Assembly: GCA_037974665.1 (NCBI GenBank)
Contig: CM075769.1
Location: 24,553,139-24,617,138, forward strand
Length of the DNA stretch: 64,000 bases
From: Ehretia macrophylla
Lineage: Eukaryota; Streptophyta; Magnoliopsida; Boraginales; Ehretiaceae
Direction: 5' to 3'
Below the pieces are notes generated by a model. The model saw only the letters and a program-made list of their open reading frames with translations. It was not told the origin of the DNA and made no database searches. Position 1 is the first letter of the stretch; each line of letters opens with the position of its first letter. Made by a program: the position numbers and the translations under genes. Positions 5,535 through 59,717 of this stretch are shown piece by piece.

Positions 5535-7821
5535 TGTGATGACCGAGAACCTCATCACATTCATTTTAATTGTTGCATGCCTTACTTGAGCATTAAAATG
5601 TGCAATTATTTACTTTTTGGTAAAAATCACTATTCATAAAGAAAATTGACTATTTAATTTTTCTGAAACTGTATTTTTGCCCTGTCATATGGCTTGTAGG
5701 AGGAATGAGAAAAGTGTCATTTTGTGTGTATTACGTTTGGAGCGTGCATTTAGAAAATGTTTTCTGTATCGTATGAATAGTGAATTAGTAGTAACAATTA
5801 GCTATTAAACAAGTTAGTTTATTATGTGCATTTTAAGCTATTATTGACCAAAGACTTACAAATGCTGGACTAGTAAATCAGCCCATACATTGAATATATC
5901 ACATATACACCATATTTAACTCATAAAAAAAAACTTAACAAAAATAGCAAACCCCCCCCCCCATTCCTTTGCTCAAACCCGACGGCACACACACACAAGG
6001 AAGAGAAGAAATCTTCAAACCATCTTGCAAATTTGATCTCTTAGCTTGATCTTGGAGTATTTTGAAGTGGCCTAGAGCTTCTATAACACTTCTATACTAG
6101 CATGGTGAGGGAGTTTTGCATTTTCATGATGTTTAAAGTTTATGTCATCTTTTTAAATTTTGTGATTTATTGGAATTAGCTATTGAAATGCTTAAATATG
6201 ATGTTAAATATGACTTATATGTTGTTTGGACTATGCTTGAGTTACTTGTTGGTAGATTCTATGGTTGAAGTTTGAGATTACATGAAGAAGATAACGAATA
6301 GTGCCAAAATTTAGGGTTTTGATAAAACTAGCTAATTAGAACAAATTGAGGCTTCCTTTAGGTGCTTTAGACATTAATGAAACTAGTTAAAAGCTCACAT
6401 GAGGTTGAATTGCCCGAAAATGAGTTAAAATGCAAAATTGACTAACTTTAAAAGTGGGATTTTTCACATAATGCAATCCGCGTACGTTTGGACTTTAGAT
6501 TGGGTATCCTTGGGGCATGGAAGCACTTTTGGTGCTTTTGTTGCGTTAAATTGGGGTCCGGAGATGGTAGGTGTAGTTAAAACCCGCTCAGGGTCTACCC
6601 GAGCTTTTGCCTCCAAAGCAAGTTTACATGGCCTTGATAGGTGTCTTTTGACTTAATTAGGGATGTAGAATGATAGGATTGTGGTTTTGTAACTTCGAAA
6701 TGCACATAGGAGAAGAATGACTTGGTTAAAGAAAGGGAAAAAGTAGTAGTTGACTACCTTGATGTTTATAAGTGCTTGTAGATGTGTTATTATGTATTTG
6801 TATGCTTGTCTAAAGTATAAATGAGCTATTTGAGGAGGTTGTGGAAGAAAATATGTTATTGTCACCTTTAAGTTCATATCGTGACTTTGTGCATATTGTG
6901 ACTATTTGCGAGGGCGGCCTACTTTGTCATTCCTCTTATGTGATATTTGATATACTTGGCTCTCGTGATCTTGACCCGGGGTTGCGCAACCTTTTCGGAC
7001 ATGGCAGCGTCGAGAAACACGGGCGGCATCGGGCTTGTCGTGTTCCCTCGACTATTATGGTGCCTATTCCCTTTCTCTCGCTAAGTATACTCCACTATCC
7101 CAGAGGCATGGTTCACCTCGTAGGGGCATATGGACCTACCTTAGGAGAAAGGGTCATAGGATCGGGGTACATCCGGAGTACCCATTTTGGAGGAATAAGG
7201 GTTTTACCTGCACTTGCTTGAAGATCTTGGCTCGTGGCTCGTGATGGAAGATAAGTGGAACCGTATCCTTTTTATACGTGGTTAAATACTTGTCCATTTA
7301 GCTTTGTTAGTTGGTATTGAATATGTTGTTATCTTGTTGCATATCATGCAGCACTTTCCGATTTATTGCATCACCTCCCTCACTGAGTAACTTTGGTTAC
7401 TCATTCATCGTTTTAACATGTTTCAGGAAAAGCTGTGGTTGGATGCTATGTACTGGTCTATATGCAGGAAATGCAAGTTGCTGGTTGTATGTGTTTTGTT
7501 TTGAGATTATGAAACCTTGTATATGTTTCTATTGTCTAAAAGGTTGTAATATAAAGTAAGCTTGTATTCTTGTATGAGTTAATAATTGTAGATGGGCTGT
7601 AATAACTTCAATAATTTACTTGATTGCCTAGTTAGTTTGCATGCTTGTGTGAATATGATTGTACCTTGGAGTTGGATTGTGGTTTTTTGAGGATAAGTTA
7701 CTGCTTGCAGGTGAATTGATAGCCCTATAAACAGGGAAAACTCCGTTCGTTTCCCCTCATTTTTCGTGACTTGGGTATTGGGTTTGGGAACTCCGGTCTT
7801 GAGAGGGATCGGGGTGTTACA
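5535..7821 (+). repeat. Family A LTR copy 1 (5' LTR)
   Basis: Starts TGTGATGACCGAGAAC and ends GGGGTGTTACA. It carries a splice-donor-like G|GTGAGG at 6104-6110 and an acceptor-like TTTCAG|G ending at 7426, bracketing hairpins H1, H2 and H3. Confidence 0.9.
6910..7426 (+). promoter_or_regulatory. Conserved LTR structured module H1-H2-H3 plus acceptor-like site (family A, LTR 1)
   Basis: H1 (6910-6935): arms GAGGGCGGC and GTCATTCCTC around loop CTACTTT. H2 (7000-7059): arms CATGGCAGCGTCGAG and CTCGACTATTATG around a GC-rich interior. H3 (7385-7402): perfect arms GAGTAAC and GTTACTC, loop TTTG, directly after CCTCACT. CTCAT at the end of H3 resembles a branch point, and TTTCAG|G ends 24 nt after H3. 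The RNA role is inferred. Confidence 0.6.
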
Positions 7822-7825
7822 GAAG

Positions 7826-7837
7826 TGGTATAAGAGC
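7826..7837 (+). other. Primer-binding site (initiator tRNA-Met type), internal domain 1
   Basis: TGGTATAAGAGC lies four bases after the LTR end. It differs by one base from TGGTATCAGAGC, the usual complement of plant initiator tRNA-Met. Confidence 0.8.
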
Positions 7838-9043
7838 TTAGATAGCTCTTAGCCGGGACAGGTTGCTCGGTCTGTTGGGTAGAGAACCCCGAGTGCACGC
7901 ATGTGAAATGTGTTTTGGATAGGTTTGTGCTAGCTTGAGAAATTATGTTTGCTTGAATAAAATGTGCTCCTATATGCTATACTTGTGTAAACTATAAAGA
8001 ATGTGCAGTATGTGTAGTTATATGAGTATATGTGCGTCTATGTGACTTGTTTGTGAAATAAGCAAAGAATGATTGATATGTACAATAATGTGGTTATGCG
8101 TGCATTTATGTGCTATAAATGTAAAATGTATGATAAGTATACGATATGTACATGTATATATGATCATTTATGCATCTAAGTAAACCTATGAGTAGTTGTT
8201 CACCTTAGTTTTTAGTAGAAAAGTATGTACTTGAATTCTTTGAGCTAAGTAATTATATGTACTAGGATAGTTTGTCAACTGAATTAGATGTTAATGACTT
8301 TTGATATGGTTAATAGTTGTATAATGGTTTGAGATACTAATTGTGCATACGTGATAGTTACCTGGTATGTGAGATTTACATTAAATATGTTATGTATGAG
8401 ATAAGAAAAGTTTATTTCAAGTGATTTCAATTGCATGCATCTATTACCCTTTGAAATGGTAAGTAAACTCTCCCCTATAAAGAGATGGTCAGCAGTGGGT
8501 CTCTGAAGCCACAAATCAGCAGAAGAGGGAATAGTTAATCAAGATATCTATTGGAGATTTCATCATATACATTTGAAATTCACATTGGGTATTTTCTTGC
8601 AATTCTTCTTGGTATTTTCTCGGTGTTCTGTATTTGGATTTATTATTCAGGACCTTGTTTTTGGTATTTTCTGGGTGCTTCTATATGGCGATTCTTGGTG
8701 ACATTCGTATGTGAAGATTGTTATCAGGCCTTACTCAGCTTTACCTCTGGCATTCGCATGCAAATGTTCCTATTGGTATTTTCTCGGCATTCTTACTCAG
8801 AATTCAAGAATGGATTTCCTATTCGATATTACTGCTGGGAGTCTTATATGATATTGGTAGTCCAAGGGGTTCTTGCTCAGATTTTCGGATAGCTTTCCAA
8901 ATAGAAGCCTTTATTTGGCCTCCTTATTAAAGAATTCTCACAAGCTATGCTTCTGGTATCCTTTGGGCTTCCTTATTGCTATTCTTGCATAGATGATGTG
9001 GAGTTTTTGAGATTAAGAAATTGCGAGGACGCAATTTTTTTGT

Positions 9044-9056
9044 AAGGAGGGGAGAG
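9044..9056 (+). other. Polypurine tract, internal domain 1
   Basis: AAGGAGGGGAGAG abuts the start of LTR 2 (TATGACGACC). It is identical to the tract in family B and differs only in its last base from those of families C and D. Confidence 0.85.
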
Positions 9057-11338
9057 TATGACGACCGAGAACCTAATCGCATTCTGTTTAATTGTTGCAT
9101 GCCTTGAGCATTAAAATGTGCAATTATTTACTTTTTGGTAAAAATCACTATTCATAAGAAAAATTGACTGTTTAATTTTTCTGAAACTGCATTTTTTATC
9201 TGTCATATGACTTGTAGGAAGAATGAGAAAAGTGTCATTTTGTGTGTATTACGTTTGGAGCGTGCATTTAGAAAATGTTTTTTGTATCGTATGAATAGTG
9301 AATTAGTAGTAACACTTAGCTATTAAACAAGTTAGTTTATTATGTGCATTTTAAGCTATTATTGACCAAAGTCTTGCAAATGCTTGACTAGTAAATCAGC
9401 CCATACATTGAATATATCACCTATACACCATATTTAACTCATAAGAAAAAACTTAACAAAAATAGCAAAACCAGCCCCCATTCCCTTGCTCAAACTTGAC
9501 GGCACATACATACAAGGAAGAGAAGAAATCTTCAAACCATCTTGCAAATTTGATCTCTTAGCTTGATCTTGGAGTGTTTTGAAGTGGCCTAGAGCTTCTA
9601 CAACACTTCTATACTAACATGGTGAGGGAGTTTTGCATTTTCATGATGTTTAAAGTTTATGTCATCTTTTTAAATTTTGTAATTTGTTGGAATTAGCTAT
9701 TGAAATGCTTAAATATGATGTTAAATATGAATTATATGTTGTTTGGACTATGCTTGAGTTCCTTGTTGGTAGATTCTATGGTTGAAGTTTGAGATTGCAT
9801 GAAGAAGATAATGAATAGTGCCAAAATTTAGGGTTTTGATAAAACTTGCTAATTAGAACGAATTGAGGCTTCCTTTAGGTGCTTTAGACATTAATGAAAC
9901 TAGTTAAAAGCTCACATGAGGTTGAATTGCTCGAAAATGAGTTAAAATGCAAAATTGGCTAACTTTAAAAATGGGTTTTTTCACATAATGCAATCCGGGC
10001 ACGTTTGGACTTTAGATTGGGTATCCTTGGGGTATGGAAGCACTTTTGATGCTTTCGTTGCGTTAAATTGGGGTTCAGAGATGGTAGGTGTAGTTAAAAC
10101 CTGTTCAGGGCCTACCCGAGCTTTTGCCTCCAAAGCGGGTTGACATGGCCTTGATAGGTGTCTTTTGACTTCATTAGGGATGTAGAATGATTGGATTGTG
10201 GTTTTGTAACTTCAAAATGCACATAGGAGAAGAATGACTTGGTTAAAGAAAGGGGAAAAGTAGTAGTTGACTACCTTGATGCTTATAAGTGCTTGTAGAT
10301 GTGTTATTATGTATTTGTATGCTTGTCTAAATTATAAATGAGCTATTTGAGGAGGTTGTGGAAGAAAATATGTTATTGTCACCTTTATGTTCATATCGTG
10401 ACTTTGTGAATATTGTGACTATTTGCGAGGGCGGCCTACTTTGTCATTCCTCTTATGTGATATTTGATATACTTGGCTCTCTTGATCTTGACCCGGGGTT
10501 GCTTAACCTTTTCAGACATGGTAGAGTCGAGAAACATGAGCGGCATCGAGCTTGCCGTGTTCCCTCGACTACCATGGTGCTTATTTCCTTTCTCTCGCTG
10601 AGTATACTCCACTACCCCAGAGGCATGGTTCACCTTGTAGGGGCATATGGACCTACCTTAGGAGAAAGGGTCATAGGATCGGGGTACATCCGAAGTACCC
10701 ATTTTGGAGGAATAAAGGTTTTGCTGGCACTTGCTTGAAGATCTTGGCTCATGGCTCGTGATGGAAGACAAGTGGAACCGTATTCTTTTTTTACGTGGTT
10801 AAATACTTGTCCATTTAGCATTGTTAGTTGGTATTGAATATGTTGTTATCTTGTTGCATATCATGTAGCACTTTCCGGTTTATTGCATCACCTCCCTCAT
10901 TGAGTAACTTTGGTTGCTTATTCATTGTTTTAACATGTTTCAGGAAAAGCTGTGGTTGGATGCTATGTACTGGTCTATGTGCAGGAAATGCAAGTTGCTG
11001 GTTGTATGTGTTTTGTTTTGAGATTATGAAACCTTGTATATGTTTCTATTGTCTAAAAGGTTGTAACATAAAGTAAGCTTGTATTCTTGTATGAGTTAAT
11101 AACTGTAGATGGGCTGTAATAACTTCAATAATTTACTTGATTGCCTAGTTAGTTTGCATGCTTGTGTGAATATGATTGTACCTTGGAGTTGGATTGTGGT
11201 TTTTTGAGGATAAGTTACTGCTTGCAGGTGAATTGATAGCCCTATAAACAGGGGAGACTCCGTCCGTTTTCCCTCGTTTTTCGTGACTTGGGTATTGGGT
11301 TTGGGAACTCCGGTCTCGAGAGGGATCGGGGTGTTACA
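9057..11338 (+). repeat. Family A LTR copy 2 (central LTR)
   Basis: Starts TATGACGACCG, where the terminal TG has become TA, and ends GGGGTGTTACA. The same TG-to-TA change is present in copy 3, consistent with copies 2 and 3 sharing a junction amplified by recombination. Confidence 0.9.
10427..10943 (+). promoter_or_regulatory. Conserved module H1-H2-H3 plus acceptor-like site (family A, LTR 2)
   Basis: H1 is at 10427-10452 with loop CTACTTT. H3 is at 10902-10919 with arms GAGTAAC and GTTGCTT, where G-U pairs replace two Watson-Crick pairs of copy 1. TTTCAG|G ends at 10943, 24 nt after H3. Confidence 0.6.
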
Positions 11339-12575: not shown

Positions 12576-14855
12576 TATGACGACCAAGAACCTCATCACA
12601 TTCATTTTAATTGTTGCATGCCTTGAGCATTAAAATGTGTAATTATTTATTTTTTGGTAAAAATCACTATTCATAAGGAAAATTGACTGTTTAATTTTTC
12701 TGAAACTGCATTTTTTCCCTGTCATATGACTTGCAGGAGGAATGAGAAAAGTGTCATTTTGTGTGTATTACGTTTGGAGCGTCCATTTAGAAAATATTTT
12801 ATGTATTGTATGAATAGTGAATTAGTAGTAACACTTGGCTATTAAACAAGTTAGTTTATTATGTGCATTTTAAGCTATTATAGACCAAAGTCTTGCAAAT
12901 AGTTGACTAGTAAATCAGCCCATACATTGAATATATCACATATACACCATATTTAACTCATAAAAAAAACTTTACAAAATAGCAAAACCACTCCCCCATT
13001 CCCTTACTCAAACCCAACGGCACACACACACAAGGAGGAGAAGAAATCTTCAAACCATCTTGCAAATTTGATCTCTTAACTTGATCTTAGAGTGTTTTGA
13101 AGTGGCCTAGAGCTTCTACAACACTTCTATACTAGCATGGTGAGGGAGTTTTGCATTTTCATGATGTTTAAAGTTTATGTCATCTTTTTAAATTTTGTGA
13201 TTTGTTGGAATTAGCTATTAAAATGTTTAAATATGATGTTAAATATGAATTATATGTTGTTTGGACTATGCTTGAGTTGCTTGTTGGTAGATTCCATCGT
13301 TGGAGTTTGAGATTGGATGAAGAAGACAAGGAATAGAGCCAAATTTAGGGTTTTGATAAACTTGCTAATTAGAACGAATTGAGGCTTCCTTTAGGTGCTT
13401 TAGACATTAATGAAACTAGTTAAAAGCTCACATGAAGTTGAATTGCCCGAAAATGAGTTAAAATGCAAATTTGGCTAACTTTAAAAAAGGGATTTTTCAC
13501 ATAACGCAATCCGGGCACATTTGGACTTTAGATTGTTTATCTTTGGGGTATGGAAGCACTTTTGGTGTTTTTGTTGCGTTAAATTGGGGTATGGAGATGG
13601 TAGGTGTAGTTAAAACCCGCTCGGAACCTACCCAAGCTTTTGCCTCCAAAGCGGCTTTACATGGCCTTGATAGGTGTCTTTTGACTTAATTAGGGATGTA
13701 AAATGATTGGATTGTGGTTTTGTAACTTCGAAATGCACATAGGAGAAGAATGACTTGGTTAAAGAAAGGGGAAAAATAGCAGTTGACTACCTTGATGCTT
13801 ATAAGTGCTTGTAGATGTATTATTATGTATTTGTATGCTTGTCTAAAGTATAAATGAGCTATTTGAGCAGGTTGTAGAAGAAAATATTTTATTGTCACCT
13901 TTATGTTCATATCGTGACTTTGTGCATATTGTGACTATTTGCGAGGGCGGCCTACTTTGTCGTTCATCTTATGTGATATTTGATATACTTGGCTCTTGTG
14001 ATCTTGACTCGGGGTTGCACAACCTTTTCGGATATGGTAGCGTCAAGAAACACGAGCGGCATCAGGCTTGCCGTGTTCCCTCGACTATCATGGTGCCTAT
14101 TCCTTTTCTCTCACTGAGTATACTCCACTACCCTAGTGGTGTGGTTAACCTCGTTGGGGCATATGGACCTACCTCAAGAGAAAGGGTCGTTGGATCGGGG
14201 TACATCCGGAGTACCCCATTTTGGAGGAATAAGGGTTTTACCTGCACTTGCTTGAAGATCTTGGCTCGTGGCTCGTGATGGAAGACAAGTGGAACTGTGT
14301 CCTTTTTATACGTGGTTAAATACTTGTCCATTTAGCTTTGTTAGTTAGTATTGAATATGTTGTTATCTTGTTGCATATCATGTAGTACTTCCCGGTTTAT
14401 TGTATCACCTCCCTCACTGAGTAACTTTGGTTACTCATTCATTGTTTTAACATGTTTCAGGAAAAGCTGTGGTTGGATGCCATGTACTGGTCTATGTGCA
14501 GGAAATGCAAGTTGCTGGTTGTATGTGTTTTGTTTTGAGATTATGAAACCTTGTATATGTTTTTATTGTCTAAAAGGTTGTAATATAAAGTAAGCTTGTA
14601 TTATTGTATGAGTTAATAACTATAGATGGGCTGTAATAACTTCAATGATTTACTTGATTGCCTAGTTAATTTGCATGCTTGTGTGAATGAGATTGTACCT
14701 TAGAGTTAGATTGTGGTTTTTTGAGGATAAGTTACTGCTTGCAAGTGAATTGATAGCCCTATAAACAGGGGAGACTCCGTCCGTTTTTTTTCATTTTTCG
14801 TGACTTGGGTATTGGGTTTGGGAACTCCGGTCTCGAGAGGGATCGGGGTATTACA
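12576..14855 (+). repeat. Family A LTR copy 3 (3' LTR)
   Basis: Starts TATGACGACCAAG and ends GGGGTATTACA, followed directly by the ATAGA target duplication. Confidence 0.9.
13943..14460 (+). promoter_or_regulatory. Conserved module H1-H2-H3 plus acceptor-like site (family A, LTR 3)
   Basis: H1 is at 13943-13968 with loop CTACTTT and inner arms CGGC/GTCG. H3 is at 14419-14436 with arms GAGTAAC and GTTACTC. TTTCAG|G ends at 14460, 24 nt after H3. Confidence 0.6.
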
Positions 14856-16267: not shown

Positions 16268-16305
16268 TGAGCTTCCAAAGAGCTCACGTTTGTTTCCCCC
16301 TACAG
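16268..16305 (+). promoter_or_regulatory. H3 hairpin plus acceptor-like site (family F)
   Basis: After CCTCAC come arms TGAGCT and AGCTCA around TCCAAAG (16268-16286). CTCAC resembles a branch point, and CCCCCTACAG|G ends at 16305, 19 nt after H3, with a good pyrimidine tract. H1 was not found in this LTR. Confidence 0.55.
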
Positions 16306-19193: not shown

Positions 19194-20960
19194 TGTGAGA
19201 CCCGAGCATGCATTTCAAGTACATTTATTTACTTTAAACATTATTTGGAAGTATTATGTGCTAATTATGTATTTATCTATTTTAATACATCATATTTGTA
19301 TTTAAATTACATATATACATATAAATGTAGTCATATTTTTGCTAGCCAATCATATTTGACTTATTTTTTACTCTTATATTCAATACATACATATATACAT
19401 ACAAACATGATAGAAATTTGCTTAGTATACCATTTTTTACTAACTTTGACTTAGCTTATTTGACCATTTGACCACTTAACAAATTTATACATTATATACA
19501 TAAAATATTTACATAACAAATAATAGAAGAAGCTAGAAAAGCCTTGAAGAAGTCGGCCAAGAGAGAAAAATAGAGAGAAAATAGAAAACCAAGAGTTTTT
19601 CCATCTTTGAATAAGAAATCTTGCATTTTTAGGCCAAATCAAAGTGGAAGTAGCTTGTTCTTGCCATTGCTAGCCTTTTTCAACAGTTTTAGGTGAGGGA
19701 TTTCAAGTCTTGCAAGTTTGTTGCTTACTTTGATTTATGAAATTTCATATATATGTGTTATAAATGCTAGTGGAAGATGAATATATGTTAAAATAATGAT
19801 TTGAGGGCTATATATATGCAATAGAACTTGTTTATGGCATTATAGGTGTTTTATGCTAACTTTGATAGTTGGAAGTTGAGAATTTGAGCTAGCTTTGGTG
19901 TTTATGATTATATATATGTGTTTGTGGTATAATTTCATGGCTTTGGTGAGAATTTGGTGGAGTTTGGGGTTAATTTTGATTAATTTCTAAAAATTCCAGC
20001 AAAGGTGCAAGTTTAGAGTTTGGCTTGTTTAGTTTGTTTCATGCCTAGTTATGCTATTGTAATGGGTTCATAATGCAGTGTAGTTGGTTACTATATTGAT
20101 TGTGCAAGGTTTATGTGTTGTAGAGATTTAAAAAGTGGTTAAATGATGTCTAAATATAGGTGGAGTTAAGAGTCGTGTCGTGCTGGGCGGTATAGGGCTT
20201 GCCGGTAATTGCACGACTACCATGTACTACTCCCTTCTCTCGTGTGGTCGGTGATGGCCATGGTGAGTTGGGTCGTAGATTCATGTACATCCGGAGTATA
20301 CTCGCAGGCGAATAGGGGAAGAGTTTGTGAGAAAGTTATAAGTGTCAGCATCAACAAGTGTTCTAAAGCGGTATCCTTTCAATGTGTTATTTAGTTTGGT
20401 TGTTTTAAAGTTGTTAAGCGAATGTGAATACGTGGTTACTAAGTGATATGTTTTGTCTAATGTATTTCTAAAGGCTTTCAGGTTAAAGCTTTCAAAACTT
20501 CATTTTACCCTGCCTCACTGAGCCTGTTTAGCTCACCTTTTTTAATGTATGTTACAGGTGTTCACGATGTAGACTATGTGCACGAGGAAGCGGTTAATGA
20601 GCCTGAGAATGTGCCAAATGTATGATATATCCTAGTTGATGAAAAAAATGTTGCTAGTTGTTTAGTTTTATTGTTTAGAAGCTTTTGGAGTTTGTGGGTT
20701 GTATACTTGATAATTTAACTTTTCTAAAGTCTAGTTGCTATGTTGTACATATATGGTTGGTCACGTTGGATTGTGATCACAACTACCTAGTCTTATATCT
20801 TAACACATGTTTATACTCAAGAATGCTTTAGCTTTGAAAGAGTTGTCTACTTTTGCCAAGTGAATGAATGTATGTTTAATATAATCCGCTCGTGAATCTC
20901 ATGGGTTGATCATAATTCAAGCGTTATAATATCTGTGTGTCGTCGCGATTGGGATTTTAC
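19194..20960 (+). repeat. Family E LTR remnant, 3' end lost
   Basis: Starts TGTGAGACCCGAGCATG and aligns with the family E 5' LTR beginning at 23456 through its donor-like AG|GTGAGG (19691-19697), GC-rich module and H3. Similarity stops near 'GTCGTCGCGATTGGG', about 30-40 bases before the expected GGCGTGACA end. No primer-binding site follows, so it is a truncated or recombined LTR. The right boundary is approximate. Confidence 0.65.
20168..20557 (+). promoter_or_regulatory. Conserved module H2-H3 plus acceptor-like site (family E remnant)
   Basis: Arms AGTCGTG and GCACGACT enclose a GC-rich interior (about 20168-20217), matching H2 of other families. H3 (20519-20535) has arms TGAGC and GCTCA with loop CTGTTTA after CCTCAC. 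GTTACAG|G ends at 20557, 22 nt after H3. The CTACTTT hairpin H1 is absent in this family. Confidence 0.5.
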
Positions 20961-23964: not shown

Positions 23965-26900
23965 TGTGACGACTGAAAACCTCTTCATATTCATTTTAAA
24001 TTGTTGAATGTCTTATTTGAGTATTAAATATACATTTATTCAATTTTTAGTAAAAGATACTATTCATAAAGAAAATTTACTGTTTAACTTTTATGAAACT
24101 GTATTTTTCTCCTGTCGCATATCATGTAGGAGGAATGTGAAAATTATTATTTTCTATATTTAATGTTGGGAGTATGCATTTAGAAAATAGTTTTCGTTTT
24201 AAATGAATAGTGTTACGAAAGAATAGTAACTTTTTGTAGGATTTTTATTTGGGTTTCTAGTGAATTAGCTAGACTTTGGACTTTTATTAGATCCTTAAAT
24301 ATGTTTAATTAGACCCTATTTACTAACCTAACTCATTATTTCCTTAGTCTATTACCTATATAATATAATAAGAGCCCGAACTAAAATTTTTATTATCTTA
24401 TTTCCCGGATTTCATATTTTTCTATTACTACTTAACTTATAATTAGCCTATGTTCACAAAAATAATATTCACTGCATATATGACGAGTGATTTGCAAAAA
24501 TATCTTGATATTATATAAATAGTAAAACTATGTATTATTTTGGAGGTTTAAAGAAGTTTTCTTATATTTATTATAATACACCTAAACTCAAATCCATTTT
24601 AACCCACAACCCAAACCCAATATCTAACCCATCAACTCATATAATTATCCTATATATATATATACCAAACAAAAAAAAAAAAAAATACACAAAACACTAA
24701 AATAAGTCAAAAAGGCCACAAATCAGCCAAAAAAGCCATTACGGGAATAGTGATTTTCTTGCCAATTTTGCTCAATTTGATCTTCCAAGCTTTGTCAAGT
24801 CTTCTCCAAGTGGTTCCAAGCTCCTCCAAGCCCTATCCTAGCTTCCTTGCACGTTTTTGGTGAGAGAGTTGCATCATTTTCATGGTTTAAAGTTTATGTC
24901 AAGTTTTTTTTTTTAATTTTCGGATTTTGCTATTATGGAGCTATAACATGCTTGTTTCTTGCTTTATATAGTATGTATACATGTTAGAGAACATCCATAT
25001 GCAATATTATAGCTTGGTGTTGAGTTTTTAGCAAAGTATTATTTGAGGAAGATGATGAATAGTGTAATTTCTAGGGTTCCGAAAATTTGAGCAATTTAAT
25101 TTGATTCAATGCTTCTAGTAGTTGCTAATTAGGTCCTTGAGCGTGTGAAAAATATTCGTTATACTTGCCATGTGAAAAATTTGAGAATTTTGATCAAAAT
25201 AGGCTACTTTAATTGGGGATTTCGGGGTTAACTCGAATCCGGACACATTTTGAGGTTATTGCTAGTCTTTATTAAGTATTGAAGCCTTAGAAGTGCCTTC
25301 GTTTTGCTTGTTTGGATTTCGAAATTGGTACTTGTAGTATAAACGCACAAAGAGGAAATCGGAGATTTAATGGTAAACGAGGTTTAACGGGTGAACTCGA
25401 GGGTCCTTGGGGTGCCATAAGGTGTGATTTGAAGGATAGGATAACTCGTTTGGAAATCTTGAACCTTGCATTTCGGTTTGGAGCTTAATAGCAAAGATTG
25501 ACAAAGGGGTTTCGGGTTGAAAGTGAATTCGGGTGCGTTCGGGCATTAGGGCTAGTGTCTAGTAAGTGAGGAGGTGCTAGAAATGTATTCGCTTCGCTTA
25601 GTTGAGCTCCGATTAGAGTACTTATAGTGTCATGCAAAAAGAGGTAAATTCAGACTTTTGGGATAATTATACTTTAAAGTGAGATTTCAAGGGGTTAACT
25701 GGTGCCATAAAGTGTCATTAGAGATGTAGTATAGTTAGATTTGAGGTTCATTATCTTGTGTGAAGTTTAGATTTTGTTTTGTGAGCATTTAGAAAGAGAT
25801 ATGTTGGACTTCTTGTCAAATAGTTGGTCTTATTGCATAATTAGTTATTTGAATTGCTATAGTTACTACATTTGATTGTTAATCAAGTAAACTATAAAGT
25901 TAGCTCATCTAGTTAGATGATTATTGATTGTTGTAGTAAAGTAATTGAAATTTATAGCTTATAATCTTAACTTAATGATATTTTGATGCTTCTAATGCCT
26001 TCTATGCTAACTAATGAGGTGGTAGAGTGAACTTTCTAGCTTAATTACATGTGAAAAATGAGTTTGTGTACAAGTGAATTGAAGAAGAAAAGAAATAGTA
26101 ACTTGATTAAAGAATGTAAATTTATTGCTTATGGTGTTTTAGTGTTAATAAGAGTGTCATTTTAACATGTCCTGTAATCTAAAGTAGTTAGTGTATGTTT
26201 AATGATCTTAGAAAAAAATAGATAATCTTGTACATGATTTCGCTTTGGATAATGCATATTAGAGTTAATCATGATAATAGAATTGCAATGGATAATGAAA
26301 GTGTTATACTTATATGAATAACTAGGGGTTGCACATTTGAGTGGATTCAAAGAGGTTTGGAGTGTCCTAATAACGTGTTTAGGAGTTCAAAGTAGTCTAG
26401 TGCATGGTTAATGGAATTATGAAAGTTAATGTTGCCTTCAAGCTTGTTAATTAACTTTTGATTAAAGTAAGCACATCATTTAGCCTTAGCATTAAATATG
26501 CATGTTTAGTGTTCTTAGATCATACTAATCGAGCTATAGTTTGATGATTATATAAAATGTGACTATTACACACAAATTAACTATTTTAATGTGAATGAGT
26601 TGTCTTTAAGTTGAATAGTATTGTTGTGTTAGGTAGTGGTTTTGAGTGGTTATTAAAGAGATTGGTGCTTTCGGAGAGTATTGGAGAGATTGGCTAAATT
26701 CTCGCAGGCTTGTTTTTAAAAAGGTGAGGGAGTTACATTCTTTTGTGCATCTTAATTTGTTTTACTGCTCATAAATTGTATAGTTTAATATGATTGCTTA
26801 TAATTACGTGTACTTTGATATAAATAGACTAAATATACACTTGACTTTTATTTATATTGTTATATGGCTTATTTATTGTAATCTACGTGCGAGGGCAACC

Positions 26901-28012
26901 TACTTTGTTGTCCCTCATTTATGTGATTCTTGAATTATATTGTCATTGCTTGAATTATTGTGATCGAATATCGGGTTGCGCAACCTTTTCGGACATGGTA
27001 GTGTCGAGAAACACGGGCGGCGTCGGGCTTGCCGTGCTCCCTCGACTACCATGGTGCCTATTCCCTTTCTCGCTGAGGCATACTCCACTACCCCAGAGGC
27101 GTGGTTCACCTGCTGGGCATGGACCTATCTCGGGAGAAAGGGTCGTAGGATCGGGATACATCCGGAGTATCCCAATTGTTGGTGTTTGGGGTTTGCCGGC
27201 ATGTTCGTGATGCTCGTGGTTCGTGGCTCATGATCGAAGACTTGGAAGTGGAACCGTATCCTTTTTAAAGTGATTAATTGCTTGGCTTATTGTCTTGTTG
27301 GTTTACGTGGCTTATATATATTTTCTTGTGTTGCATATCATGTTGCACGTTGGCATGTTGCATCACCTCCCTCGCTGGGCAACATTGTTGCTCATTCCTC
27401 ATTTAATATGTTTCAGGTGAAGCTGAGGTGAATCCTCAGCTGATAGAAGAAGAGGAAGAAGTGCTAGTTAAGCAATTTCGGTGACTTCTTGTGTGATAAG
27501 GTTGTCTAAAATGAGAAGCTTGCGTGGAGTTGTTGTTGATTGCCTTTTTGTGACCTTGGGGTCTTGAGTATAAATGGTGAATGTAATAATTTGTAATATT
27601 GTATGTTGGATATAAAGTGGAATGACATGTAATAATCTATAGTAAACTTATTCTTTTGCATGATTGTGTGATTAACAAACTTGGAAGTAGAACTTGGCTA
27701 TTGTTATATCTAACTACCTATAGTTAAAATTAGAAATGCTTTGCTTGCTTGTGTGTTATATGTATTGTTGTTCCAAGGCTCGGATGGCCTTGTGATCGCG
27801 GGTGGCCCATAAAAATCTTGGAGGATTGGTTATAAGTGTTGCTGTTTGTGGATCTAGTATCATGGATGTCTTTGTGCAGGTACCAATTTAGTCCTATAAA
27901 CAGGGGAGACTCCGTTCGTTTTCCCCTAAAATTTTGTGCCCGGGGTTTGGAATTGGGTGAGAATAGCATGATAAATAGGAGTCCCGGTCTCGTGAGGGAT
28001 CAGGGCGTTACA
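23965..28012 (+). repeat. Family B 5' LTR
   Basis: Spans 4048 bp from TGTGACGACTG to CAGGGCGTTACA. It contains donor-like G|GTGAG sites at 24859 and 26723 and an acceptor-like TTTCAG|G ending at 27416. The 26300-26370 segment and the 3' end are closely related to solo LTR H. Confidence 0.9.
26891..27416 (+). promoter_or_regulatory. Conserved module H1-H2-H3 plus acceptor-like site (family B 5' LTR)
   Basis: H1 (26891-26916): arms GAGGGCAAC and GTTGTCCCTC, loop CTACTTT, nine pairs with one bulged T. H2 (26994-27053): arms CATGGTAGTGTCGAG and CTCGACTACCATG with a TG bulge. H3 (27377-27393): arms GGGCAAC and GTTGCTC, loop ATT, after CCTCGCT. TTTCAG|G ends at 27416, 23 nt after H3. Compared with family A, both H1 and H3 arms differ by compensatory changes. 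Confidence 0.65.
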
Positions 28013-28601
28013 GAAGTGGTATCGGAGCTTAGCTAGTTAGCTAGGTGCAAGCCGGGGTAGGGTTTTCGGCTTGTGGGGTAGTGCCCTTAGTGTCAATGTG
28101 TTTAGAAAGTATATGTGCATGTCTTATGTGATAAGAGAGTTAATGTGATCAATGTGCTTATGTGATCAACATGTTTTATTTGTTGAGTGAACTAGTTGTA
28201 GTTTATGTGCTTGTGTGATAAGTGGAATGGATATGGTTAACGTGCTTGATGTGTTTATATGTTCAATGTGTTTATGTGATTAATGCGAGCTATGTGATTA
28301 ACGTTCCTTGTTTGAATTATGTGCTTTGTGTACTTGAGTGCTCGATATGCTTTATATGACTAATGTGAATATGTGATTAACTTGTTTTATGCAAAGTTGT
28401 TGTTTAAATGACTTAGTAGTTTATAATTTGTGTATGTGAACTTGTTGCTTATGTGACTTTACTTGTTATATATTGCTAACGTGATCAATGTGTTTTATGT
28501 GTTAAGCATACTTACGTGAAACAATGTGTTTTATGTATGAGGGTAACTTGCTTGTATGTGTAAGAAATTGCGAGGACTCAATTTTTGTAAGGAGGGGAGA
28601 G
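28013..28601 (+). mobile_element. Family B internal domain (589 bp, degenerate TTATGTGAT repeats)
   Basis: The primer-binding site TGGTATCGGAGC is at 28017-28028 and the polypurine tract AAGGAGGGGAGAG at 28589-28601. Most of what lies between is degenerate repeats of the form TTATGTGATTAATGTG (about 28085-28560). There is no open frame of interest. This is close to a minimal replicon: primer site, leader, polypurine tract. Confidence 0.85.
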
Positions 28602-32572: not shown

Positions 32573-32585
32573 TTCTCCCCTCCTT
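32573..32585 (-). other. Polypurine tract of the TR-GAG element
   Basis: On the sense strand AAGGAGGGGAGAA directly precedes the 3' LTR. Confidence 0.85.
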
Positions 32586-34580: not shown

Positions 34581-34649
34581 CGTACTAATCAAAGAGTTAG
34601 CACAATTATAGCACGTAAACAGGTTATAAACAATTATTAACACCTAAAC

Positions 34650-38854: not shown

Positions 38855-39380
38855 GAGGGCAACCTACTTTGTTGTCTCTCATTTATGTGATTCTTGAATT
38901 ATATTGTCATTGCTTGAATTATTGTGATCGAATATCGGGTTGCGCAACCTTTTCGGACATGGTAGTGTCGAGAAACACGGGCGGCGTCGGGCTTGCCGTG
39001 CTCCCTCGACTACCATGGTGCCTATTCCCTTTCTCGCTGAGGCATACTCCACTACCCCAAAGGCGTGGTTCACCTGCTGGGCATGGACCTACGTCGGGAG
39101 AAAGGGTCGTAGGATCGGGATACATCCGGAGTATCCCAATTGTTGGTGTTTGGGGTTTGCCGACATGTTCGTGATGCTCGTGGTTCGTGGCTCATGATCG
39201 AAGACTTGGAAGTGGAACCGTATCCTTTTTAAAGTGATTAATTGCTTGGCTTATTGTCTTGTTGGTTTACGTGGCTTATATATGTTTTCTTGTGTTGCAT
39301 ATCATGTTACACGTTGGCATGTTGCATCACTTCCCTCGCTGGGCAACATTGTTGCTCATTCCTCATTTAATATGTTTCAG
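38855..39380 (+). promoter_or_regulatory. Conserved module H1-H2-H3 plus acceptor-like site (family B 3' LTR)
   Basis: H1 is at 38855-38880 (loop CTACTTT; one C-to-T change in the outer 3' arm gives a G-U pair). H3 is at 39341-39357 (arms GGGCAAC and GTTGCTC). TTTCAG|G ends at 39380, 23 nt after H3. Confidence 0.6.
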
Positions 39381-40715: not shown

Positions 40716-43490
40716 TGTAACGCCTGATCCCTCACGGAATTAGGTCTCTGATCCCAAACCCCAAGTCACGAAGAATGAGGAGAAATAGACAGAGTCTCCC
40801 CTATACATAGGCTAAACCAAAACTTGCACACAGAAGAATCATCCTAAAACACATCCGCAACATATATATAATAAGTTTCATCCTTGGTCCATTTTATGAT
40901 TCTAGCTTTTTCTTCCTTTAGACAGGGTACATACATGGATTGAGACTTAAATAATACTAATCCAATGCCTTTACTATATTATCATACCACTCTAATCAAC
41001 TCTTAATTTAAACTTTAATTATATCTCTTTACATAGCAATTACATTCGAGATGATCACCAAAAAAAAGAAAGAAATACAAGCCAGGATATCCAATTTACT
41101 TCACATAACTTTACATAACTATCCAACCAAAGATACAAAGGGACACCTGATCTTCCTCTTCTACCTCTCGAGCCTATCTCTGCCATGCCTTTAAAATGTT
41201 AGAAATAGGGGTAAGCAAAACACTATTGCTCAGTGAGGGAGGGAACAATTATCCGGGGAGGTTTGCAAATATTTTCGTGCAATGCATATAAGCCATAGAA
41301 CCAATTAACAAGATAAAATAATCACTCGAAATAATAAAATTAAGTAACACATTTATGAAGCCATAATCAGATAATGACAGCATATAATCATTTAAAGACA
41401 AACAAGACAATCACAAAGGTGTTATGTCAATACGAGAGAATCAACCAATATCATGAATTTAATAACACTTAAATAGAGAATACAATCATATGTAACTCTC
41501 CAAGGACTTAGGGCCCAAGCGAGAATTACTCAATAAAAGGATACAATTTGATCACGAACTTGAACCACGAACCACGAACCACGAATCACGAACCATGAAC
41601 AGAAACCCGATATGATAATGACAATGATAATGATAAGCTGACATTCCTTATCACTCTAGTGGGCGTACTTCGGATGTACCCCAAATATCTTACGATCCAA
41701 CTCTCCCAGGGCGGCATCCCTTGCGAGAGAAGACTGGGTTCTATGGTAGCCGAGCTATACTAGCAAGCCCAATGCCGTTGGATGTTTCCCGACACTACCA
41801 TGCCTGAAAGGTTGCAACCTTGACACTCGATTTATGATTAGCACATAACAAAACTAAACAATAATTCAATAGCACACAAGTGAGGAACAACAAAGTAGGT
41901 TGTCCTCGCACGTACATTAGGAAATAACAAGCATATAACTTAAGCAACCATACTTTACAATTCTAATCAAGCTAATACAATTAACAATATAACAATTAAA
42001 AACACATGATAGCACAAAGTGATGCACACAAGTAGAAACTAAGTCAACCATAGATTATGAGTACATTCAAGTTCATTTAGACACTCAACTAGTCCTTTCC
42101 AAATCAATTCCTAACAATTAATTCAACTATCTTTATCTAGACCTTTAAACTTCCTAGCAATTATACAAGCTATCAAACAACGAGGTGACAATACGAGCAC
42201 ACTAGACACTACAAAATCACTAACTAACCACAACCAAGCTCTAAAATGCACAAATACACACACGACCCAAAAACACATAAATGCTCCTTTATGTTCAAAT
42301 AATTCTTTACAAGTTCTAATCACATTCTAGCAAATCTAAGCATTAATCTAGTCATTCTCGCACTTATTTTATGCATTGAAATAAACAATTAACCATTTGC
42401 ACACAAACACACATTTTTGGCCCTTTGCGTTTAAACAACCTACACTAAATTCCAATTATATTTTAACTAGTTTGGTGTCAATTTTAGCTATTATAACACT
42501 TATGGCACATGATTCAAGCATTAGAACAACATATAAGCTTCAACTATACACTTTATATCAATTTTACTATTCATCATCTTCTTCAATAGATTAAGCGACT
42601 ACTCTAACTATCCAAGTGCACATACACTAAGAGACTACATTACAAGTTAGGAGAACACTATTATAAGCAAGATTAAACTTTATTTCAACTATATACAACA
42701 TAACCATATATAAGATAATAAGATTATCAACTTAAAATGCACAAATATGGATGTTCCATCACCTAGATTAAGGTTGTATTACAATAGATTAGCCTTAGAT
42801 TGCCCAAATTTTGCTAGAAAATGTACCAAGAACAAACCTTAACAAAAATCCCCAATCTTTTCTCCTTCCTTGGAGCCATCGGCCTTGGCTCTTTTTTTTC
42901 CTTCTTTTGTTTGCTTTATAATGTATATTATGTGTATATATGTAATATATAGATATATGAAGTATATAGTATGGGTAGGCTTTAAGTTGGGCTAACATAT
43001 ATGGGTTATATCACTTAAAACAAGCCCAAAGCAATGCAAGAACTCTAAAGGCCCAAAAAATACAAGCTAGGATTCACTATTCATACGATACACTAACTAT
43101 TTTATAACTCGTGCTCTCGATATGCTATGCAAGTAAAATTTATAAATGTATGCTTATAAATAAGTGTATAATGAGGGAAAAATACGGAACTCGTAAAATA
43201 AAATACTTTAATTTTCATCTTGAGCTCAAGACTCATTTTAAAATGATGAAAACTAATTTATTAGGTATAGGAAAGTAATTCCACATAATACAAATAATAA
43301 AATAATAGGTCAAACATTTTATATAAATTAAGTAAATATCATTTGCACATTTCAAAAATTAGAGAAAGTAAAGCTACTAAATAAATACAAAATTAAAGTA
43401 AACACATAATCTCATACAAACACTTTAAACAAACATACAATTATACGCAAATAAGTACTATGCACTATATACTAGGTCTGAGGTGTCACA
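40716..43490 (-). mobile_element. Solo LTR, family G
   Basis: On the sense strand it starts TGTGACACCTCAGACC and ends GGATCAGGCGTTACA (2775 bp). It lies inside the family E LTR with flanks TTATT and TTATC, a target duplication with one mismatch. No internal domain or second LTR was found. The end sequence and GGGGAGACTC motif near its 3' end relate it to families A, B and H. Confidence 0.8.
41189..41907 (-). promoter_or_regulatory. Conserved module H1-H2-H3 (family G)
   Basis: On the sense strand H1 (41882-41907) has arms GAGGACAAC and GTTGTTCCTC around CTACTTT. An A-U pair here replaces the G-C pair of family B, a compensatory change. An H2-like pair (CATGGTAGTGTCGGG and CTCGGCTACCATAG) lies near 41740-41805. 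H3 (41212-41232) has arms TGAGCAA and TTGCTTA after CCTCAC. AAAG|G follows 23 nt later, a weak acceptor. Confidence 0.55.
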
Positions 43491-44194
43491 TTATCCCTCT
43501 CTCATTGAGCCTGTTTAGCTCACATCTCTTTAATGCATGATACAAGAGTTCATGATGTGGGCTACGTGCGTGAGGAAGACAATAATGAGCTTGATCATCT
43601 TTATAAGGTGTATTTGTTGTATTTAAATTTGAAACCTATGTTTTATTGGATTTAGTAGTTTTGAAGCTTATGTACCAAATACTTGATAGTCAAATTTATT
43701 TAAGTCCAATTGTTTTGGTTGTACATATATGGTTGGTCACGTTGGATCATGATCATAACTAGCGTATGGTTATATTTCAAGAATGCTAAATTTTTGAAAG
43801 TGTTGTCTACTTTTTGCCAAACGAATATATGAATATTTAGAGTATTCTGAAGAGAATGTTGAGGTGATGTTGTATATGAATGATGCGAACTTTGAGGAAT
43901 GTATGTTGTATATTCTTTGTTGCGTTGGTTGTTCATATTACAAGTGTTATAGTATCCGTGTATCGTCGTGACCGGGCTTGGTTTCCGAAGGACCGAGTTT
44001 AGGCGTGACATTTGTGGTATCAAAGCTTAGCTTGTCTAAGCGTAAGCTAGGATAGGACCTTGGGTCTGTGTGTTATGCCATCCAATGTAAAGTGTCGTGG
44101 CATAGCTATGTGTTTATGTGCATAAGAATGTCTTCAAGTTGAGTGTGATGGGAGATGTGCATGAGAATATGTCAAAATGTGTGTCTTTGTCTTG

Positions 44195-46113: not shown

Positions 46114-46161
46114 GTGAATTATTAGACCAAAGTTGTTAAGTTTCAGAAATCGGGTCATCCA

Positions 46162-49900: not shown

Positions 49901-50953
49901 TAAAGGTGAGGGAGTCTTCACCTCTTTTATGCATCTTAACTTAATTTATTGTTTCTAAATTGAATTATTTAGTAATTGATAAAGTTTATATGTAGTATTT
50001 TACTTGCTATCTTGAGTCTTTTCGTGTTATTTGTGATTAACTGCGAGGGCGGCCTACTTTGTCGTTCCTCTTATATGGTATTTGATATATTTGGCTCTCG
50101 TGATCTTGACTCGGGATTGCACAACCTTTTCAGACATGGTAGCGTCGAGAAACACGGGCGGCGTCGGGCTTGCAGTGCTCCCTCGACTACCATGGTGCCT
50201 ATTCCCTTTCTCTCGCTGAGTATACTCCACAACCTCAAAGGCATGGTTCACCTGCTGGGCATATGGACCTACCTCAGGAGAAAGGGTCGTAGGATTAGGG
50301 TACATCCAGAGTACACCATTTTGGAGAAATAAGGGTTTTGCCGGTACTTTCTTGAAGATCTTGGCTCGTGGCTCGTGATTGAAGACAAATGTTGAACCGT
50401 ATCCTTTTTATACGTGGTTAAATACTTGTCTAATTAGCTTTGTTATTTTGTGTTGTATATGTTATATCCTTGTTGCATTTCATGAAAGCATTCCTCAGTA
50501 TGCTGCATCACCTCCCTCACTGAGTATACTTGTTGTATGCTCACCATCGGGTCTAACACCTTTTAGGATCAGTGCTATCAGAGGTAGAAAAGAAGGCTCG
50601 AGAGTTTCATGATTGACTATGCTGGCTTACGTGGATTGTCATTGAATTCAGTTTTGTAATTGTAAAGTTAAGTTTAGAATGTATTGATAGTTATGAATGG
50701 CTTGTAATGTTTTATTAACTTGTAATCTTTATTTTGTTGTCTAGTTGACTTGCATGCTTGTAAGGATGAAATGGATTGAGGTTGTGGATTATGTTCTTGT
50801 GGTTATATGTTGATGTTTGTAGGTTTCTAGACAGTCCTATATAGGGGAAACTCCGTTCGTTTTTCCCTAAATTTCATGCCCGGGGTTTGGAATTGGGTTG
50901 ATGATAGTATGTTTAATAGAAGTCCCGGTCTTGTGAGGGATTGGGGCGTTACA
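46924..50953 (+). mobile_element. Solo LTR, family H (4.03 kb), inserted in reverse transcriptase
   Basis: Starts TGTGACACCCTGACCCG and ends GGGGCGTTACA, flanked by perfect ATCTT duplications (46919-46923 and 50954-50958). No internal domain. A CA-rich microsatellite lies at about 47205-47320. Donor-like G|GTGA sites are at 47403 and 49905. Segments around 49813-49872 and the 3' end are closely related to family B, while the first half is not. Confidence 0.88.
50045..50566 (+). promoter_or_regulatory. Conserved module H1-H2-H3 plus acceptor-like site (family H)
   Basis: H1 (50045-50070): arms GAGGGCGGC and GTCGTTCCTC, loop CTACTTT. An H2 pair (CATGGTAGCGTCGAG and CTCGACTACCATG) lies at about 50135-50195. 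H3 (50522-50542): arms GAGTATAC and GTATGCTC, loop TTGTT, after CCTCACT. CTTTTAG|G ends at 50566, 24 nt after H3. Confidence 0.6.
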
Positions 50954-57249: not shown

Positions 57250-59717
57250 TGTGAAACCCCACTTTTCCTGCTTATCTCGTTTTACGTGCTTTGCCTCGTT
57301 TTGCGTGCATATGATCTGTTTATGTGCTATAGGACCTAGAAAGTTATAATTTTGATGTCAATACTTCTAATACGTGCTAAATGTGCATTCATGAAATTTT
57401 CATCAAAAACGGAGTCAGAAATTTTATCGTCGATTTTCAATGAATAGTGTTTTCGAAACACGTCCGCTATAATTTTGAAACTGGTCTTTTTAACCCTTCT
57501 AGACCTACTCCACGGACTTTAATAGACCCGTGTTTGATGAAAACGGTTTTAAAATCGGCTTAAGAATTTATTAGGGTTTTTACACCGACTTTTGCGAAAA
57601 TCGAGTTTTAAGCCGACTCGGGTGGAATTCTTTGAATGTAAAACTTCTTGTCACCTAAAAATAATCCACTTGAGATATCTTGGGGGTTGCATATTTATTT
57701 TTAACTTGGTGAGCACTAAAATGCAATTAAAGTCATTAAAAACACAAAAATACATATTAAAACTAACTTTGACTTTGCATTTTTTTAATTGACCAAGCTT
57801 TTTATTATATAATGTCATCAACACACACTCACACAACACAAAACACACTCCAAAAACACACACAAAACCGTGGCTCCTTGGAGGAGAAAGATAAGGCATT
57901 TTCAAAGCATTTTTCTCACAGATTTTGCGTTTCAAAGCCGAATTGAGTGATTCAAAGCTTGAAATTGATTGTTTGGCATCCATTCTACACATTTCTTGCA
58001 TCAAAACACATCAAAGGTGAGAGAAAAATTCTAGATCTCAAAATGTCATTTTTTGTGTTTTTGCGTATAAATGAAGATTGAACCGTTAGAATTGAAATCT
58101 GATGATAGATTATTGCTCCTTGCATGCTAGGGATCATTATATACTAATACTACGAGTTTCTGTCGGATATAGCACAATTTTTATTTTCCGGGTATTTAAT
58201 TTTGATTAAAATGTTCAAAGTTGATTTAATTGAGTTGTGTTGATCGAAATCGATTGCCGTCGATTTCTAAATACTTGATAATTACGTGTTAGCGCTGTTG
58301 TAATGCCGAATTTTCGATTACATTGTTTGTGTGGAAATCCGGAAAATCCAGCCATGACGTCATAGAGTTTTAGGGTTATCGGGCATGTTTTGGAGGTGTT
58401 ATGGTGGATTTCCGAGAGGGCTAATGTAGTAGGTTGAATGGGTGAGTGATAGGAACTGATTTGGCAATGTTTGGATTAGTAGATTGTAAGTTATGAATTT
58501 TAGAAGTTAGGTTGTCATTCTTTAATTTCTTGAACGATGCCTTAGATGGTTGGGTAGTGTTCGAGTGATGAATGGTGAGTTGTTGTTGAGTAATTTAGAG
58601 TTTAATTATGAATATTATGCATGTCCGGTTAGATGGCCTACTTTGTCATCTAATTACGTTGTTTGATGTTTAATTTAATATTGATGTTATATTGATGTTA
58701 TTGATTGATTATTATTGAATGCGGGAATCGGGCACTCTTGTTGCTGATCTCCCAATTGATTGATCGATTTATGCTTGCATGATGATTGATGAATATGGAG
58801 CCTTGGTATGTGTGTGCCACCTCTCGGGCAGCGTCGGGCTGTCGGGTTGAAACCGGCATGACTGCCATAGGCTACCCCCAGCTCGCATGACGGAGATGTC
58901 ATGGAGGGAAGGGGATAGTGAGGTACCTCGGGTGCGTGAGTAATGGGGAGTTATAAGAAGAACGGTTGAGATCGTGATGGCGTTTGGAGCTACACCAAAT
59001 AGAGTATCCTTACTGAATGGTCATATAGTTATGTGATGATAGCTTTATTTATGTTATTATTGTTGTTGTGTGTTTACTTGCTCAAAGGACTAAATCCAAG
59101 GAGCGTAGTGAATACTGTCGAGATCTATCGGATCCTCACTGGGCTTATGTATATAAGCTCACTCTCTATTAATGCATGCTTACAGGTGTTGCAGAGCCGG
59201 ATTACGGGTATGTGCCTCCTGAAGAGGAGAATGTGGAAAATGTGCTTTACGTGGACGAGTCATATGTTCCCGAGTCTTATCCATGATTATATGTTGTTTA
59301 ATGTCATGTATATTAGTTTAATAGACTTTTATATGCTTTGTGGTTCTTATTGTAATAGATGTTGGAAGATGATGATCCAAATGGTGTTAACTTAGTGGCT
59401 TTCTTTTGTCTATGGTTAAGTTGTAAATATGTCTCAACTTATTTTTGAAATGTATGATAAGGTCGAGGTATTGTATGTTATGTTGGAACGGAGGCGCATA
59501 ACTATGAATGAGTTGATGAAAGAATATTTAATGTATGAAATAGTTGCGTTGTATGTTGTTGATTTAATTGTGGAGTTGGTTGGTGATTTGTGGAGTTTGA
59601 TGTATGTTGTTTTTAAGGGTTGGTTTAGAGCCCTGATGTTCATGTTACTGTCGTTATGCTGCCGAAATTCCGTTGCGTCCTGACTGATTGTAAGAGGGGT
59701 CGAGTTGGGGCGTGACA
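57250..59717 (+). repeat. Family D 5' LTR
   Basis: 2468 bp, from TGTGAAACCCCAC to GGGGCGTGACA. Donor-like AAAG|GTGAGAG (GT at 58017) and acceptor-like TTACAG|G (AG at 59185) define an intron-like 1169-nt segment. Confidence 0.9.
58629..59185 (+). promoter_or_regulatory. Conserved module H1-H2-H3 plus acceptor-like site (family D 5' LTR)
   Basis: H1 (58629-58653): nine-base arms TTAGATGGC and GTCATCTAA around CTACTTT. An H2-like GC-rich hairpin region with GGCAG/CTGCC lies at about 58820-58865. H3 (59141-59160): arms GGGCTTAT and ATAAGCTC, loop GTAT, after CCTCACT. TTACAG|G ends at 59185, 25 nt after H3. Confidence 0.65.

Follow-up and report, generated by a model that had tools for sequence, protein, structure and literature searches.

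In a window of 64,000 nucleotides from Ehretia macrophylla (assembly GCA_037974665.1, contig CM075769.1, positions 24,553,139 to 24,617,138 of the forward strand), the long terminal repeats (LTRs) of Ty3/gypsy, Tekay-like retrotransposons carry a short hairpin, named H3, which stands at a held distance before an acceptor-like AG. In the reading that we prefer, to which we assign a probability of about 0.6 from the sequence, this one LTR acceptor with its hairpin would serve two introns, a leader intron and a terminal intron of Pol, while H3 would slow its use and the spliced RNA would act as mRNA only. The reading is carried by the hairpin and its covariation, by the grammar of the acceptor, by the donors, by coding constraint on the frame that follows the AG, and by the phase match between this frame and a pol-end donor. 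A sequence-only reading of the same stretch had proposed an intron inside the LTR with a branch point covered by a stem. The covarying hairpin, the branch-point-like CTCAY in its 3' arm, the 3' splice-site grammar and the GTGAG donors upstream all speak for such an intron; what has changed is that in several families a coding frame follows the AG, and that the pol-end donor, which is not part of the LTR, appears to suit this frame better than the leader donor of the LTR does.

Hairpin H3 and its acceptor-like AG

The sample comprises the window and 200 kb of flanking sequence, 264 kb in all, and most copies come from this single region. Sites were chosen by a pattern that demanded at least five outer pairs, permitting G-U and barring A-C in the outer five. 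The scan of the 264 kb returned 43 hits, seven of which were dropped (three lying elsewhere in A/H-type LTRs and four apparently spurious), leaving 36 sites with 24 distinct hairpins. A homology search around the acceptor, in which the stem was not used, added seven acceptors; by eye, four of them have a full stem, and in three the stem has one or two pairs broken. In 40 kb from four other contigs, four further sites were found, in three of those contigs. At gathering scores, no known RNA family of Rfam was matched in the window.

The arm pairs of all eight hairpins described earlier (families A to H) were located on the given strands and fold in the way described, with the correction that an outer T-A pair also belongs to the stem. 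In all eight families CTCAC, CTCAT or CTTAC closes the 3' arm. The distance from the last A of this arm to the end of the first AG is 23 nt in A, 22 in B, 24 in C, 24 in D, 22 in E, 19 in F, 23 in G and 23 in H, in agreement with the 19-25 nt previously counted, the earlier values being larger by one where the count began at the C before the last A. Of the two C copies, the one at 30597 (minus strand) has ACAAG in place of ACAG/G (the slash marks the predicted splice boundary), and ACAAG is likewise found at the second E-type copy, at 43501. The eight LTR families are not independent but subfamilies of one lineage: C and D form one family, with 78-83% identity across most of the LTR, and a second group unites A, B and H, plus G through a short match.

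Since the selection demanded five outer pairs, pair levels 6 and 7, which lie outside it, provide a fair test of the stem. They are paired in 22 and 23 of the 24 distinct hairpins, respectively, and at level 6 T-A and A-T are equally frequent (11 each). When the outer five bases of both arms were fixed and the loop side was shuffled, the observed pairing of the eight families was reached in none of 20000 trials. In a formal covariation alignment of 23 of the 24 hairpins (the one at 79758 was omitted), 98.8% of the 161 cells are paired, against 85.0 ± 2.1 after shuffling, and three of the seven stem pairs have changed on both sides. The covariation score is 0.488, compared with 0.262 in shuffled alignments, and was reached by none of 500 shuffles; measures that count changed pairs or pair types did not exceed the shuffles in the same alignment (229 and 225 of 500, respectively). 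Shifting the partner by one to three columns lowers pairing to 23-40%, and RNAalifold, unprompted, returns the identical stem. Covariation, which the sequence-only reading had looked to for support, is thus borne out on the 264-kb sample rather than genome-wide, and with these tests rather than with R-scape. An argument for the strand based on G-U wobbles (20 sense G-U versus one A-C) was dropped, as the selection itself allowed G-U and excluded A-C.

The sequence past the hairpin has the form expected of a 3' splice site whose branch point lies close to the hairpin. In 30 of 31 distinct tails the first AG follows the hairpin at 19-25 nt, as compared with a mean of 4.0 and a maximum of 12 in 5000 shuffles. 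The pyrimidine fraction is 0.75 before the AG versus 0.46 in the 20 nt after it, and among the same tails the base before the AG is C in 21 and the base after it is G in 26. At the stem base, the last A of CTCAY is present in 23/23 aligned hairpins, under a selection that allowed G. U2-type branch points lie some 18-40 nt before the AG; CTCAY lies about 19-25 nt before it, with competing candidates both nearer and farther. The GT...AG ends, the consensus donor and the pyrimidine-rich 3' end fit a U2-type intron, a donor having been located for part of the sites.

The frame after the AG and its candidate donors

Past the AG, in the frame whose first two bases complete a codon, the LTRs of B, C, D and E show a short acidic peptide closed by a stop codon; H does so less clearly, and A, F and G do not. 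The peptide reads VLSQDYGYVPPEEENVENVPFVDESYVPESYP in the C/D group, EAEVNPQLIEEEEEVLVKQFR in B and VHDVDYVHEEAVNEPENVPNV in E, each followed by the stop. The ratio of nonsynonymous to synonymous differences (pN/pS) of the tail is 0.48 in frame versus 1.42 and 0.96 in the other frames in the C/D group (18 sequences), and 0.47 versus 1.01 and 0.90 in the B-like group (nine sequences), these values being pooled over non-independent pairs, with no significance test and with a few poorly aligned rows in the 18-sequence set. Length differences among C/D tails are mostly whole codons; the copy at 141527 is shorter by one base. One D tail and one B tail matched no known domain of Pfam, and the D tail matched none of the solved structures.

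Eight putative chromodomain ends were found, seven of which run into CAA/GTAAGAATTT (CAA/GTAAG), in phase 1 and just before the polypurine tract. In all five of these seven for which the acceptor was also found by pattern, the join to the tail is in frame, and the predicted introns measure 1770-2004 nt. The unspliced continuation of Pol varies in length among copies, whereas the tail that splicing is predicted to add is conserved. Among four elements without pol, GTAAG at the place before the polypurine tract is kept in two (B and one in the flank) and lost in two (A and C). Elements without pol at window positions 9012, 28560 and 32595-32612 and at flank position 83556 still have the segment before the polypurine tract, with TTGC.AGGAC.

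Within the LTR, AG/GTGAG occurs 550-1500 nt upstream in 20 of the 36 sites, the expectation being 0.09 per site; one of the 20 (that for -48212) turned out to be another copy's acceptor, so that 19 remain, many of which are related. The context ATCAAAG/GTGAGAGAAAAATTCTAGATCTC recurs from copy to copy in the C/D group with small variants, and the predicted leader introns measure 1169 nt in D, 1260 in C, 693 in B, 661 in H, 865 in E and 1322 in A. A TATA-like box and a CA-rich leader lie ~210 nt before the D donor and, by eye, are similar in several relatives. Among 15 aligned copies, the leader exon shows no conserved start codon in the phase of the tail, and in three copies, one of which is an outlier, the last leader codon is a stop. 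The idea that the LTR leader exon is in every case the source of the tail frame was rejected on account of this missing start and of the in-phase stops. The LTR donor GTGAGGGAG (6105 in A) and CTCCCTCAC, which stands immediately 5' of H3 (7375-7383 in A), are reverse complements; donor and anchor match over 9 bp in each of A, B and H, one pair being a wobble in B. A selected long-range helix between the LTR donor and the anchor TCCCTCAC was rejected, as anchors shuffled among 15 distinct pairs reach the observed total in 1696 of 5000 trials.

A proposed single acceptor for two introns, and the alternatives

In the proposed mechanism, a donor AAG/GTGAG at the end of a short leader exon in the 5' LTR would be used with the LTR acceptor, and a leader intron of ~0.7-1.3 kb would be removed. 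At the other end of the transcript, the pol-end donor CAA/GTAAG would be joined to the acceptor of the 3' LTR; ~1.8-2.0 kb, including the polypurine tract and U3, would be taken out, and the LTR-encoded acidic tail would be added onto the putative chromodomain end of Pol. Because the polypurine tract and U3 are missing from it, the spliced RNA would serve as mRNA only, and the unspliced RNA would be the template for reverse transcription. H3 pairs the CTCAY of the shared acceptor and would compete with its recognition, most likely slowing its use, so that enough unspliced RNA would survive. In Arabidopsis, according to the available part of the report, single-stranded branch sites accompany splicing (PMC7784297), and the pairing of such a site should therefore reduce it.

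The hairpin with its covariation, the acceptor grammar, the donors, the coding constraint and the phase fit are seen in the sequence; the splicing itself, the identity of the branch-point A, the lowering of splicing by H3 and the change in RNA fate are inferred. That H3 masks the branch point and throttles splicing, as the sequence-only reading had it, is plausible but unproven, and we give it clearly less weight than the intron itself. With the H3-gated acceptor present in both LTRs, a switch of RNA fate may result: the open state would lead to loss of the leader intron and of the polypurine tract with U3, giving an mRNA for acidic-tailed Pol, and the closed state would leave the RNA whole and copyable. 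We propose this switch tentatively, at somewhat less than even odds.

Several observations count against the two-intron mechanism. The eighth pol end, 67% identical, has AAG/GTAAG in a phase that does not fit; in two of the seven fitting pol ends the acceptor was not found by pattern; among the five joined cases, one carries a stop just ahead of the donor and has its AG mutated to AA; and in two of the seven pol copies the frame breaks further up. Left unspliced, GTAAGAAT encodes Ser-Lys-Asn, so that its conservation is not solely that of a donor. On the side of the leader, 16 of the 36 sites have no AG/GTGAG in range, the A donor reads CATG/GTGAGGGAG (CATG/GTGAG), and no convincing LTR donor was found in F and G. 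A pattern search of the 264 kb for C/D-type spliced junctions gave six hits, none of which by eye has a tail exon behind it; such a lack of spliced-junction copies is expected if only unspliced RNA is copied, yet it brings no support.

By weights of our own, the CTCAY of H3 scores lower than a CTAAC/TTAAC/CTGAC/TTAAT-like site that lies 8-14 nt ahead of the AG in 18 of the 31 listed tails, and the anchor 5' of H3, where it reads CTCAC, is unpaired and scores as high as the CTCAY; one L030 copy, from another contig, ends in CTCG instead of CTCA. The higher-scoring sites near the AG and the equal-scoring anchor mean that H3 may not contain the branch point. The intron and its terminal coding exon could then be real, with the branch point in a CTAAC/TTAAC-like site near the AG or in the unpaired CTCAC, and H3 could aid splicing, shorten the path to the AG or bind a protein. 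We regard this as somewhat unlikely: a good site near the AG is missing from several acceptors, among them F, those of the C copies, 104144 and 141527, the anchor is CTCGC, with no A, in B, C and others, and 8-11 nt is short for a distance from branch point to AG. The constancy of the stem-base A among the aligned hairpins and the held distance to the AG are further points in favor of H3, the G of the L030 copy apart.

The frame after the AG might instead encode a small LTR protein, made from leader-spliced or unspliced RNA and separate from Pol. An ATG of the leader exon in the tail frame, open to the donor, in four of the 15 copies (the C copies and the pair 141527/148955, from two subfamilies) weighs on this side and not on that of a Pol exon, as does one C copy in which the unspliced frame is open for ~25 codons upstream, with an ATG near the AG. 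The other 11 copies lack such an ATG, the three with a stop in the last leader codon are among them, and no start codon is shared, which makes a separate protein improbable. We see slightly less chance still that H3 and its surroundings form a structure by which the transcribed LTR is packaged, dimerised or used in strand transfer, with an incidental AG and no splicing there. In favor of this, conservation and many stems are seen as well in a larger block 200-400 nt upstream, and A, F and G retain H3 and the AG without an acidic tail, another point that tells against the two-intron mechanism; a packaging or dimerisation structure would, however, leave unexplained the held AG distance, the pyrimidine bias and the coding frame that runs in fixed phase from the AG.

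Host elements and known retrotransposon introns

The name Tekay for the host elements is our assumption from features of the LTR, the primer-binding site and the putative chromodomain. The LTRs start with TGTGA and end near GGCGT(T/G)ACA, then TGGTATC[AG]GAGC follows, and a purine-rich tract precedes. This primer-binding site, which presumably matches the initiator-Met tRNA, comes directly behind the LTR in B, C, D and others. The LTRs are about 2.3 kb long in A, about 4.05 kb in B, 2.52 kb in C and about 2.47 kb in D. The C element encodes a Gag protein (PF03732, E 5.8e-18; PF19259, E 5.7e-8), while a reverse transcriptase (PF00078, E 8.4e-22) at 46126-46959 is not tied to an H3 element. A chromodomain match (PF00385) in an 87-aa piece of L030, the pol end of a relative, is weak, with E 2.4e-4 and 21.4 bits, under the curated cut-off of 25.1. 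The coordinates of the hairpins, donors and coding-like exons of the window are collected in the table.

Table. Hairpins, donor-like sites and coding-like exons in the 64,000-nt window
Feature	Position	Strand	Remark
H3, family A copy 1, 8 bp	7384..7403	+	AG ends 7426
H3, family A copy 2, wobble variants	10901..10920	+	AG ends 10943
H3, family A copy 3	14418..14437	+	AG ends 14460
LTR donor-like GTGAGGGAGT, A copy 1, CATG before	6105..6114	+	1322 nt before AG/
H3, family F	16268..16286	+	AG ends 16305; post-AG reading frame lost
H3, family E, 5 bp	20519..20535	+	AG ends 20557
LTR donor-like AG/GTGAGGGATT, E	19693..19702	+	865 nt before AG/
Coding-like exon after acceptor, E (VHDVDYVHEEAVNEPENVPNV, stop)	20558..20625	+	
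H3, second E-type LTR	43506..43522	+	acceptor changed to ACAAG
H3, family B LTR1	27376..27394	+	AG ends 27416
LTR donor-like AG/GTGAGGGAGT, B LTR1	26724..26733	+	693 nt before AG/
Coding-like exon after acceptor, B LTR1 (EAEVNPQLIEEEEEVLVKQFR, stop)	27417..27484	+	
Pol-end-type donor GTAAGAAATT, B, just before polypurine tract	28560..28569	+	
H3, family B LTR2 (nested C element interrupts LTR)	39340..39358	+	AG ends 39380
H3, family C, one LTR	30569..30591	-	acceptor ACAAG
H3, family C, other LTR	35367..35389	-	AG ends 35343
LTR donor-like CAAAG/GTGAGAGAAA, C	36593..36602	-	1260 nt before AG/
Coding-like exon after acceptor, C (VLSHDYGYVPPEEENVENVPYVDESYVPESYP, stop)	35242..35342	-	
H3, family G	41212..41232	-	AG ends 41189; no convincing donor
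H3, family H	50521..50543	+	AG ends 50566
LTR donor-like AAAG/GTGAGGGAGT, H	49906..49915	+	661 nt before AG/
H3, family D	59140..59161	+	AG ends 59185
LTR donor-like CAAAG/GTGAGAGAAA, D	58017..58026	+	1169 nt before AG/; TATA-like box about 210 nt further up
Coding-like exon after acceptor, D (VAEPDYGYVPPEEENVENVLYVDESYVPESYP, stop)	59186..59286	+	

The A-type copies belong to an array at 5537-14855, made up of three tandem units with a 3517-bp period that are 93-95% alike and arranged as LTR-internal-LTR-internal-LTR. Element B (23965-39977) has two 4.05-kb LTRs with 588 bp between them, the second LTR being split by the C element (30051-37370, minus strand). The conserved block 200-400 nt 5' of H3 is found at 6960-7300, 26950-27300 and 50090-50400, and in G and E by alignment. 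It sits within the predicted leader intron and is rich in complementary segments (GGGTTGCGCAACC; CATGGTAG.GTCGAG with CTCGACTACCATG; CCCTTTCTC with GGGAGAAAGGG), the folding z-scores of the whole block being modest (-2.1 in B and -1.7 in A). We rejected this block as a coding exon: open reading frames are present in individual copies, yet by eye the frame is shifted by indels that distinguish A from B. A motif CCTATAAACAGGG..ACTCCGTTCG lies about 100-120 nt before the LTR end (about 7722-7750 and 27890-27920), with variants in A, B, H and G. A direct repeat of ~280 bp, 86% alike, occupies 53088-53640.

Plant LTR elements are generally described as intronless, with few exceptions (PMC12786077, available in part). 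The literature cited in this paragraph and the next was likewise available in part, and what we say of it holds for those parts. Facultative introns that control which proteins are made are known from plant LTR elements such as Ogre (Ty3/gypsy Tat), CRR, Bagy-2 and EVADE (PMC12786077, PMC6317226, PMC3735527). BARE1 of barley (Ty1/copia; PMC3735527) resembles the elements studied here in having pools of spliced and unspliced RNA, with alternative splicing separating coding roles. Its intron, however, measures 104 nt and lies at the end of gag, whereas the introns predicted here end inside the LTR, one of them would take the polypurine tract and U3 with it, and a branch-point-like site lies under a covarying hairpin. 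None of the introns of Ogre, CRR, Bagy-2, EVADE and BARE1 is described as ending inside an LTR (PMC12786077, PMC6317226, PMC3735527); those of the first four affect internal coding regions, with no mention of an LTR-encoded Pol tail or of a branch-point hairpin.

Outside plants, Cer1 of C. elegans (PMC10309623, PMC12786077) is likewise an LTR element whose spliced and unspliced RNAs have different fates; it differs in that its own protein is required for export of the unspliced RNA, and no LTR intron or hairpin is described for it. The branch-site structure reported for Arabidopsis (PMC7784297) is a genome-wide average, whereas H3 is a conserved element of a transposon. In sunflower, LTR elements are alternatively spliced in nanopore RNA, Tekay members being absent from the expressed set (PMC7730604), and papers on chromoviruses and on LTR structure (PMC3605345, PMC3601003) mention neither an intron that ends in the LTR nor alternative splicing. 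In the literature searched, mostly open-licence and available in part, we found no LTR intron, LTR-encoded Pol exon or branch-point hairpin in a plant retrotransposon.

How one transcript is divided between translation and replication is an old question for LTR retrotransposons and retroviruses. If one LTR acceptor serves two introns, and one of these strips the polypurine tract and U3, splicing would provide a built-in mark that sets the mRNA apart as unsuited to copying. An exon inside the LTR is easily overlooked when Pol is assumed to stop at the first in-frame stop, and the hairpin over a branch-point-like site would offer a testable, structure-based dial for intron retention. Should the switch of RNA fate hold true, a retroelement would keep the last coding exon of its polyprotein inside its own LTR.

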